Shown here in pieces: positions 717 to 39,099 of a stretch of DNA of 39,099 nucleotides. The stretch's first letter is position 1. Each line of letters opens with the position of its first letter. The translations under genes were made by a program, and so were the position numbers. The notes beneath the pieces were generated by a model. The model was not told where the DNA came from. It saw only the letters and a program-made list of their open reading frames with translations, and searched no databases. Source of the DNA: Zestosphaera sp. GTDB lineage: Archaea; Thermoproteota; Thermoprotei_A; Sulfolobales; NBVN01. The stretch spans positions 1 to 39,099 of the forward strand of contig JAWBSH010000008.1 of NCBI GenBank assembly GCA_038843015.1, written 5' to 3'.

Positions 717-1391
717 ATGCTGGAAAAGGCTGCAGAACTCCTGAGAATCGGAAGACCTGTCTTCATATACGACTCAGAAAGTAGGGAGAGTGAGGCAGAC
801 ATAGTATTCTTTGCTGGAGCAGTAAACACGTACTCAATAACTATTTCTAGGAAGTTTGCTGGCGGCTTGACTTGTTACGTGACTAGTAAGGAGGTAGGGT
901 CTCTCTTAGGTCTCCGATACTTAGAAGAAGTCTTCCAATTACTTGGTTATAGAGAGTTAACTCGTAAGAGGCTGGGCTACGGGGACCCACCCAACTTCAG
1001 CTTATGGGTAAATCACGTGGGTGTTAAGACTGGAATTAGAGACTCTGATAAGGCCAAAACAGTCAGAGAGTTAGACGAGATAGTCAGGCTGATTATTGAG
1101 GAAGAGAAAACCACGCTGGCTGTGAGGAAGTTTTATTCCGAGTTCGTGACACCAGGTCACCTCCCAATACTCTTGGGTAGAGGTCTCGACGTCAGGAAAG
1201 GACATACAGAGCTTAGTCTAGCATTAGCTGAGTTAAGCGGGTTAAGACCCTCTCTAATAATCACTGAAGTTCTGAGTGATGGTGACGCAGCTACATATAA
1301 CGAGGTTAAGAAACTAGCTGAGAAGTTCTCGACTGTAGTTGTTAGAGGAGACGAGATAATCTCAGCTCTAGAGAAAGCTAGGAGAATGTAG
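717..1391 (+). CDS. ribB: 3,4-dihydroxy-2-butanone 4-phosphate synthase
   Basis: RibB converts ribulose 5-phosphate to 3,4-dihydroxy-2-butanone 4-phosphate and formate in riboflavin synthesis. The 224-residue protein matches the single-domain archaeal form. Near residues 19-30 it has D-x-E-x-R-E-x-E-A-D, the acidic metal/substrate loop; then SRKFAGGLTCYV (family R-x-G-x-G-x-x-C region), KTGI with a following D, and the C-terminal TPGHLPILLGRGL and GHTELSLALAELSG blocks holding the catalytic His/Glu. ATG 717 is the first start after an in-frame stop at 708. No GTP cyclohydrolase II domain is attached, as expected in archaea. Flavin supply could serve the flavoproteins at 14.7-15.9 kb, but that is only a thematic link. 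Confidence 0.9.
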   Translation: MLEKAAELLRIGRPVFIYDSESRESEADIVFFAGAVNTYSITISRKFAGGLTCYVTSKEVGSLLGLRYLEEVFQLLGYRELTRKRLGYGDPPNFSLWVNHVGVKTGIRDSDKAKTVRELDEIVRLIIEEEKTTLAVRKFYSEFVTPGHLPILLGRGLDVRKGHTELSLALAELSGLRPSLIITEVLSDGDAATYNEVKKLAEKFSTVVVRGDEIISALEKARRM

Positions 1392-1450
1392 TAGTTAGTC
1401 TTCGTAGCTGAAGCTCTAAAGAGAGCTTTGATGAGTGAGAGACAGTTAGG

Positions 1451-1630
1451 GGTTTAGCTCTTATGTTGGTTTTATTGCCTCGTTTTTGTCCTCCTGCGTT
1501 GGTTTTTGGTTTGGTTACTCTTGGGGCGTTCGGGGGCACTCCTAGACTCCCACACATGAAGCACTAGAAACACTACAAGTGTCCTCACTCACATCAACTA
1601 ACATGAACAGATACGAAACCCGAAACAGGC
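1451..1630 (+). repeat. Diverged intergenic repeat, copy A (inverted partner at 38925-39099)
   Basis: This fills most of the 312-base gap between ribB and the next gene. The stretch 1489-1615 aligns with the reverse complement of 38940-39061 at roughly 80 percent identity by eye. The best-conserved block, GGCACTCCTAGACTCCCA, is identical in both, followed by a near-identical GCACTAGAAACAC block. Similarity weakens but continues back to about 1451. A short frame, ATG 1463 to TAG 1567, encodes 34 residues whose FCPPAL..GLV.L....GTPRLP pattern is shared in frame with the other copy. It may be the 3' tail of a lost gene, possibly tnpB of an IS605-type element, or a mobile non-coding element. Origin is unproven. 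Confidence 0.7.
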
Positions 1631-1703
1631 GCACTAGACGTTTGATGAATAGTTATCTGCTTAGTTATTAACTTTTTTGACGTATCTTTAGTAGGGTGAT
1701 GCG

Positions 1704-2375
1704 TTGGTCCAGGTAGTTCTTGAGTTGCCTGAAGAGCTTGTCAATTCTCTCAAGAAGATTTATCCAGGACTTGCTACAGAGATTCTCATCAAGAAAGTTC
1801 TTGAAGACTATTTAAGCAGGATTTCTCAAAAGCAGGTAGTGCAGGAGGAGGCGCTCGGCAGTATTCAGAGGTTGCTTAGGTCTGCGACAGACACGATAAA
1901 CACTTACTCCTCACTACTTACAGACCTTAGAAATAGGTTGGTTGAGATGCGTGAAGTTCTTGAAAATTTGAATTCAAAAATTGATGAACTCCCTTCCAAG
2001 ATCGTCGTGCAGCAAGTTCCTGTCGAGGCTGTTCAGGAGAAGGCTAGAGAGAAGATTACTGCTATAGAGATACTCAAGAAGCAGAAGATAATATATGAGG
2101 CAGACATAGCTAAGAAGATTAGGAATAGAGACGCCTTCTTCGACAGACTAGAGAGGGAAGGTGCTGTGGTCTTGAGTCTTAAAGATCAGCGGGTAGCGAT
2201 AGACGATGAGTTCTGGTCTGAATTTGTTAGTAAGGTAGAGTCTCTAACTACGGATAAAGACTCAGAGATAGCTAAGATTCTAGATAAGCAGGAAGTAGCT
2301 TTACTCAAGAAGCTGAGTGAGTCAGCGATAGCTTACTACGAGAGAAGTAAGAAGAAGTGGGTCATTAAAGCTTGA
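1704..2375 (+). CDS. Unknown protein: RHH-like N-terminus plus coiled coil
   Basis: Not recognised as a named family. Residues 1-40 (VQVVLELPEELVNSLKKIYP) look like the strand-helix-helix of a ribbon-helix-helix DNA-binding unit. Residues about 48-100 are a heptad-rich coiled coil, and 115-223 form a charged alpha/beta region that could be a winged helix (EADIAKKIRNRDAFFDRLEREG then VVLSLKDQRVAI). There is no signal peptide or membrane segment. Start is TTG 1704, with a GGGTGATG ribosome-binding site just upstream and an AT-rich TATA-like stretch near 1660-1675. It stands alone on the plus strand and converges with the nikR-like gene. A chromosomal DNA-binding or tethering protein is a guess only. 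Confidence 0.6.
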   Translation: MVQVVLELPEELVNSLKKIYPGLATEILIKKVLEDYLSRISQKQVVQEEALGSIQRLLRSATDTINTYSSLLTDLRNRLVEMREVLENLNSKIDELPSKIVVQQVPVEAVQEKAREKITAIEILKKQKIIYEADIAKKIRNRDAFFDRLEREGAVVLSLKDQRVAIDDEFWSEFVSKVESLTTDKDSEIAKILDKQEVALLKKLSESAIAYYERSKKKWVIKA

Positions 2376-37946: not shown

Positions 37947-38879
37947 ATGAATTTATTGAGGTTTGAGAGAGTGGTTATAGTTAATGAGTTTAGTATGGCT
38001 TTCTCTTTAGACGTTAGGGATGTTCTCCCGGTTTTGTCGGATCTTCAGCTCCACCTGAGTTTATGGCCTATTGTAGAGTCTCTGGTTGAGGTGTTGAGCG
38101 ATAATGAAGTCGTAGCTAATCTGAAAATAGGTGATTCTCTAAGCAAAACTCACTTCAGAATAAGTGTCAGCAAAGAAGATGAAGTTAATATCGTGAAAAT
38201 CGAAGGTCATGATGACTTAAGCCTAGAACTCAGGTTAAGTATTGTGGGTAGGGTGATGCTTGGTAGCCCCTTAACCCTAGTTAAGGGCAGAATCTCTGTG
38301 AAGTCAGCTAACGAGAAAAAACTGAAGCCGTATATCAAGGAATTTGTTGATGCCTACCAAAACAGGCTAATTGAAGTGCTACCAGCAGTAATTGAGGCCT
38401 GGAAGAAGAGACTAGCTGAGAAAGTAGAGGAGAAAGTAGAAGTAGCAACTCAATTGCCAGAGAAAACAGTGATTGAAGAACGAGTTACTCGAGAAGAACC
38501 ACCTAAGCTCAAGTTAGAAGGCTTGAATATTACAGAGAATCCTGTAGCTCTCGAAGACGAAGTCTTACTAAGCAATATAATCCTCAAGTCTCAAATCCTA
38601 AAGACCGTCAGAGAAGAACTCAGCGGTCCTGAACTCCTGAGAAGACTGAGTGAAATATACTTAGAGACTAAACTGAGAACCCTCTACGTACTCGCAGTAG
38701 ACTCGGAAAACAATAAAGTCAGGATATTAATTAGAGACGGTGTAATCACGGGCCTCAGGATCGAGCTGAGAGAAGGCGTAGTTGTGAATGGGGTAGAAGC
38801 ACTCAAGAAACTTAAGGAGATGGATAAGAGAGTATTAAAGATCACTACTTACTCAATGCCTGAAGAATCAATGCTCTAA
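37947..38879 (+). CDS. Unknown protein, SRPBCC-like N-terminus
   Basis: A 310-residue soluble protein of no recognised family. Residues 1-150 (FERVVIVNEFSMAFSLDVRD to the VDAYQNRLIEVLPAVIEAW helix) have the strand-helix-strands-long-helix order of SRPBCC/START-like folds (CoxG group). Residues about 155-190 are a charged linker (KVEEKVEVATQLPEKTVIEE), and 195-310 form a second alpha/beta domain (LYVLAVDSENNKVRILIRDG, ITGLRIELREGVVV). No signal or membrane segment. TATA-like CTTTTTAATATT lies 12-25 bases before ATG 37947; GTG 37971, with GAGG upstream, is an alternative. Archaeal proteins of this shape can be regulatory or lipid/ligand-binding, but no function is claimed. Confidence 0.55.
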   Translation: MNLLRFERVVIVNEFSMAFSLDVRDVLPVLSDLQLHLSLWPIVESLVEVLSDNEVVANLKIGDSLSKTHFRISVSKEDEVNIVKIEGHDDLSLELRLSIVGRVMLGSPLTLVKGRISVKSANEKKLKPYIKEFVDAYQNRLIEVLPAVIEAWKKRLAEKVEEKVEVATQLPEKTVIEERVTREEPPKLKLEGLNITENPVALEDEVLLSNIILKSQILKTVREELSGPELLRRLSEIYLETKLRTLYVLAVDSENNKVRILIRDGVITGLRIELREGVVVNGVEALKKLKEMDKRVLKITTYSMPEESML

Positions 38880-38924
38880 GTTCTCTTAAAGCAGTAGACC
38901 TCCTCAGACCTGCCTCTTATAATC

Positions 38925-39099
38925 GTTCCGGATTTCACATCTGTTCACGCTAGCTGATGTAGATGAAGATGCTTGTAAGTGTTTCTAGTGCTTTTATGTA
39001 TGGGAGTCTAGGAGTGCCCTCTCGAACGCACTCAAGAGCAACCAAACCCGAAATCAACGCAGGAGAACAGAAGTGAGACAATGACATCAATGACAAACC
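38925..39099 (-). repeat. Diverged intergenic repeat, copy B (inverted partner at 1451-1630)
   Basis: Read on minus, it matches copy A over at least 38940-39061 and runs off the window edge. The identical core GGCACTCCTAGACTCCCA is at 39000-39017. A minus-strand frame from ATG 39087 to TAG 38950 would code 45 residues with FCSPAL..GLVAL and GTPRLP, aligned in frame with copy A. Three extra bases relative to A between GLV and GTPRLP come from two compensating insertions. It may be a tnpB 3' remnant or another non-autonomous element; the rest lies outside the window. Confidence 0.7.

Follow-up and report, generated by a model that had tools for sequence, protein, structure and literature searches.

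Background

The crenarchaeote Staphylothermus marinus was reported in 2009 to contain 14 copies of gene-less MITEs of about 260 nt that are linked to IS607 (PMC2678158). In Haloquadratum, PATEs are described as termini-only derivatives of tnpB-type transposons which outnumber the full elements (PMC3119063). For IS607, IS1535 and ISC1926, the published description gives a serine transposase, internal motifs that the two ends have in common and the dinucleotide GG at both the ends and the target (PMC6188088). The reRNA or omega-RNA of TnpB is described as deriving from the right end of the transposon (PMC8612924; for archaeal omega-RNAs, PMC12558985).

Two diverged stretches in 39,099 nucleotides of Zestosphaera sp. 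(the whole stretch of DNA analysed, hereafter the window) were compared with these systems. Both stretches are very probably old insertions of a gene-less, MITE-like member of an IS607-type, tnpB-bearing transposon family. Like the S. marinus MITEs, the short units found here (191-382 bp) are gene-less and IS607-linked; compared by description, the S. marinus elements resemble DNA upstream of transposase ORFs, whereas the present units retain the 3' region of tnpB as well as the two ends. The Haloquadratum PATEs are similar in being tnpB-type derivatives reduced to their termini, but they are characterized as IS605-type with near-terminal palindromes, and the ends found here resemble those of an IS607 element. 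While IS607, IS1535 and ISC1926 are described as encoding tnpA, the window elements encode nothing. Finally, the kept right end corresponds to the region named in the omega-RNA accounts as the source of the guide RNA, but it lies here on short elements without tnpB and is a candidate guide.

Results and discussion

Two inverted copies in the window

When the window was compared with itself using blastn, positions 1466-1626 matched 38925-39090 on the reverse strand with 132/166 identities (79.5 %, 5 gaps) and an E-value of 1.2 × 10−33 against the whole window; the same pair was recovered by nhmmer with an E-value of 1.4 × 10−25. The inverted, diverged repeat of about 80 % identity given in the preliminary description was thus confirmed. 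No closed ORF of at least 80 aa overlaps either copy, in agreement with the earlier statement that neither contains a recognisable gene. A sharp identical core had also been taken as a sign of selection. However, the longest identical run in the 166-column alignment of the two copies is 19 bases, and a run of about 16 bases is expected by chance at 166 columns and 80 % identity (ln(166 × 0.2)/ln(1/0.8)). Since the run is near chance length, it gives no evidence for a selected core.

The features of copy 1 and its surroundings are as follows.

717..1391, plus strand: ribB, 3,4-dihydroxy-2-butanone 4-phosphate synthase, neighbour gene (Pfam PF00926, E-value 1.9 × 10−38)
1449..1639, minus strand: copy 1, short non-autonomous IS607-type element of 191 bp (family alignment; size from left end to right end)
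1449..1545, minus strand: right end (RE) of copy 1, decayed, homologous to the tnpB 3' end plus the transposon terminus
1546..1553, minus strand: deletion junction GTGGGAGT (element orientation) of copy 1 (alignment of copy 1 with the C7 copy)
1573..1584, minus strand: decayed TATA-like stretch of copy 1 (aligns with the box position of intact relatives)
1591..1639, minus strand: left end (LE) of copy 1, 97 % identity to the LE consensus over 38 positions (60-copy end profile)
1704..2375, plus strand: neighbour gene without a Pfam family, present in 57 of 60 genomes, its own included

Copy 1 is oriented with its right end at 1449 and its left end at 1639, and the covariance model described below matches it at 1449-1606 (E-value 3.7 × 10−11). 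Its right end is a candidate guide-RNA scaffold region. At the deletion junction the C7 copy has about 65 extra bases, consisting of a hairpin region and ending in a GTGAGGGT-like repeat. Copy 2 has the same junction as copy 1, and the middle of the intact form is missing from both. Judged from these alignments, both window copies derive by deletion from a build that includes a TATA-like box and a hairpin (see below). The folding of copy 1 (1449-1580) was no better than that of shuffles (z = +0.62). An RNA gene family, as had been suggested earlier, is therefore a poor fit to copy 1, which lacks the hairpin region; for the intact relatives it is possible, if unproven.

The gene at 1704-2375 adjoins ribB without an intervening element in genomes G001 and G004. 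The anchors of the copy 1 locus lie 36 bases apart in G001 (275 here) and 58 bases apart in G004 (288 here).

Copy 2 extends beyond the window, and its features are as follows.

37947..38879, plus strand: neighbour gene upstream of copy 2, ORF of 310 aa without a Pfam family
38912..39099, plus strand: copy 2, whose left end is at 38912 and whose right end falls outside the window, near C8:39345, on the far side of a gap of 97 N

The model match in copy 2 (38951-39099) is cut off at the window end. Just past this point, and inside the copy, lies a scaffold gap of 97 N (C8:39100-39196; L024:301-397), and from its second base the sequence after the gap repeats exactly the 129 bases up to the gap. 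With an exact overlap of 129 bases between the two contig edges, it is probable that no real sequence is missing at the gap. A match at C8:39199-39346 was considered as a third copy and rejected; owing to the exact repeat it was counted as the other edge of copy 2 across the gap.

Relatives in the same genome and larger elements

The genome to which the window belongs (G000) comprises 1.55 Mb in 20 contigs. A query of 201 bases found 10 places in it at E ≤ 1e-3, including the query itself and the scaffold duplicate. Besides the query, eight further independent places are present at this threshold, copy 2 among them, and part of the matches are ends of larger or broken elements.

On contig C14, both family ends flank an ORF for a TnpB of 412 aa in an element of 1471 bp. 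This TnpB matches PF07282 and scored 89.8 bits with the NCBIfam model guided_TnpB, which is under the model cut-off of 100. The element on contig C7 (L049:217-2174) carries a 204-aa serine transposase of the IS607 family (NCBIfam NF033518, 219.4 bits, cut-off 110; PDB matches include ISC1904 and ISC1926) and another TnpB. Its left end is similar to that of the window family and its right end is different; short units bearing this second right end were found on contigs C19 and C1 (L028:1412-1714 and L057:1060-1352). No tnpA was found within the window elements or in an element whose right end is like theirs, the C14 element having tnpB only, and this speaks against the proposed mobilisation by a TnpA of the C7 type.

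A further tnpB subfamily was observed as three truncated 3' ends that have a C-terminal tail in common (L050:606-965, L051:868-1356 and L052:1105-1452).

Ends, target and empty sites

The end profile was built from 60 left and 59 right ends. An LE anchor of at least 12 of 19 consensus positions was required and was found for 60 of the 81 hits; part of the similarity within the left end therefore follows from this requirement. The boundaries are sharp and the flanks near random: outside the ends no position exceeds 0.24 bits, and inside many positions exceed 1 bit. The elements begin with GCC and end with CCCC, and GG (CC) is thus present at the ends; the second C of the left end has 1.04 bits. 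Left and right ends share an imperfect inverted motif of 37-40 bases in all six larger elements tested, and for each of them 0 of 200 shuffles were as good.

The copy on contig C4 is absent from its place in G001, a sister species of the same genus. At this empty site the flank join with GG scored 208.5, compared with 202.0 for the join without GG, in a gappy alignment of one site with two joins compared.

The elements are MITE-like in that they are short and transposase-free, carry both ends of a gene-bearing element, occur in many copies and have unrelated flanks. In the proposed mechanism, TnpA supplied from elsewhere in the cell would bind the subterminal motifs common to both ends, join the ends and integrate the element where the target has the dinucleotide GG (CC). 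As one internal deletion is common to both window copies, the deletion form itself would have spread and then decayed. In the intact relatives, the right end could serve as the guide RNA of TnpB; cleavage of empty sites by this nuclease would then favour persistence of the element.

Census and two builds

A covariance model was created from 10 short copies and applied at E ≤ 0.01 with stricter filters, by which weak matches were lost. Matches were found in 15 of 60 genomes, the source genome included, and these span five families of one archaeal order; a plain DNA query reached 5 of the 60 at E ≤ 1e-3, again with the source genome included. The number of matches was at least 44 in G018, 29 in G033, 27 in G057, 20 in G027, 15 in G000 and 14 in G037, and between 1 and 5 in nine others. 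When the 81 hits were examined with their flanks, 49 were short units running from LE to RE (191-382 bp), 11 had tnpB upstream and 21 fitted neither class. The preliminary description had proposed a dispersed family, perhaps a non-autonomous mobile element, and had stated that such a family would be supported if additional copies, over five in number and with definite ends, were found; the eight further places in G000 and the matches in 15 of 60 genomes, with many copies and sharp ends, support this proposal.

Relatives of the C14 TnpB were present in 18 of 60 genomes at E ≤ 1e-30. In viral contigs, a pattern-and-tblastn scan found no relatives of this type, and none were found in plasmids at E ≤ 1e-30. 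The relatives in the GTDB set comprise seven loci, all titled archaeal MAGs. The short element L125 gave no match to phages at E ≤ 1e-5.

Two builds were observed among the short elements. At 8 of the 10 loci fetched from G057, LE runs straight into the last approximately 150 bases of tnpB. In the second build, a TATA-like box and a hairpin segment lie between LE and the tnpB 3' region; it occurs in G018, G000, G041, G004 and part of G027 and G033.

G057 (L226-L235) is a single-contig genome of 1.3 Mb from a different family. In G018 (1.6 Mb; L110-L125 and L196-L215), many right ends are of two linked sequence types, GGGTGATGCAAACCCAAGACC and CCCGATGAAAACCCGAGCGG.

The kept right end as a candidate guide RNA

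The kept RE is the right terminus of the transposon together with the 3' end of tnpB that it overlaps, which is the position of a guide RNA. Because the intact short copies keep this region, and often have a hairpin and a TATA-like box as well, each may be a guide-RNA gene in its own right. A wider form of this explanation sees the short elements first of all as independent, promoter-bearing omega-RNA genes that few TnpB proteins serve in trans, mobility being secondary. We regard it as possible and lean against it.

In favour of it, a TATA-like hexamer of one of four kinds precedes the model start by no more than 60 nt in 34 of 41 hairpin-type copies, the hexamers having been chosen after the sequences were seen and being found in 12.6 % of simple shuffles. 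Either CTTATA or TTTATA is present in 24 of the 41. The hairpin and the following stem fold better on average than dinucleotide shuffles (mean z of −1.41 and −1.43, each negative in 37/41), but the whole right end folds no better than shuffles (mean z −0.27, negative in 23/41). Pairing in the stated structure amounts to 83.4 % of cells, a value reached by 16 of 500 shuffles and replaced by 39-60 % when the structure was slid; against this, the eight pairs changed on both sides (reached by 336/500 shuffles) and the covariation score (71/500) are unremarkable, and five G027 rows in the alignment used for these pair counts look misaligned in the hairpin.

RNAalifold was also run. On whole elements it tied LE to RE, and for the RNA part the energy was −22.96 kcal/mol, the covariation term being +0.31. 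Neither result was used as evidence.

Reading the tnpB frame back from its stop, closure occurs within 33 codons in 29 of the 41 short copies (in 10 the frame is open for at least 47 codons, and in 2 the stop motif is missing), yet the right end stays alike, which also speaks for RNA genes. However, the copies are related, so this likeness comes partly from recent spread. Pooled substitutions in 20 G018 copies, in which the pairs are not independent, numbered 463, 203 and 247 at codon positions 1, 2 and 3, respectively. Since the frame is often closed and third positions are not favoured, the kept right end bears no sign of protein-type constraint. The explanation by omega-RNA genes is further weakened by G057, in which 27 model matches stand beside a sole TnpB match at E ≤ 1e-30 that covers an N-terminal part (residues 14-135), and by copy 1 in the window, which is without the hairpin.

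For the intact relatives in particular, we can offer a tentative picture. They would be mobile, promoter-bearing guide-RNA genes, present in dozens per genome and each targeting its own empty site, with a single TnpB protein, or a small number of them, serving all in trans. RNA-guided cutting would keep these gene-less elements in the genome, and a new hairpin would have replaced the 5' part of the scaffold inside tnpB.

Other explanations for the window copies

Old insertions of an IS607-type MITE-like element were also weighed against three further readings. It is improbable that the copies are PATEs of the IS200/IS605 type which owe their mobility to a Y1 (HUH) transposase and not to an IS607 serine transposase. 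G000 does have one Y1 transposase gene (C4:154559), and the Haloquadratum PATEs are characterized as termini-only IS605 derivatives (PMC3119063). However, the element with a similar left end carries a serine transposase, and the inverted subterminal motif and CC/GG ends are as in the account of IS607 elements (PMC6188088).

A decayed gene remnant or a segmental duplication, not mobile, would explain a right end homologous to the tnpB 3' end and the absence of a transposase inside, but it is scarcely credible in view of about 60 copies with defined ends and unrelated flanks and of orthologous loci from which the element is absent. A known structured-RNA family unconnected to transposons would suit short elements outside ORFs of annotated length with a hairpin in the intact copies, and is just as implausible, as no Rfam family reached its gathering score in the window, nothing was found at E ≤ 1 with 14 related loci, and the right end is tnpB 3' sequence.

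Conclusions

Short elements linked to IS607 are already a known kind, and the possible guide-RNA cargo with its own promoter may be the new part. No description of short IS607 elements carrying a TnpB guide-RNA scaffold was found in the open-licence PMC texts consulted. Bacterial PATEs reportedly encode omega-RNAs, according to work by Meers and colleagues in 2023.

An unexplained pair of intergenic repeats is placed in a transposon family that occurs in five families of one archaeal order and for which the ends, larger parent elements and an empty site could be described. Should the kept right ends function as guide RNAs, G018, with its at least 44 matches, would be a natural test of TnpB acting in trans for gene-less elements.
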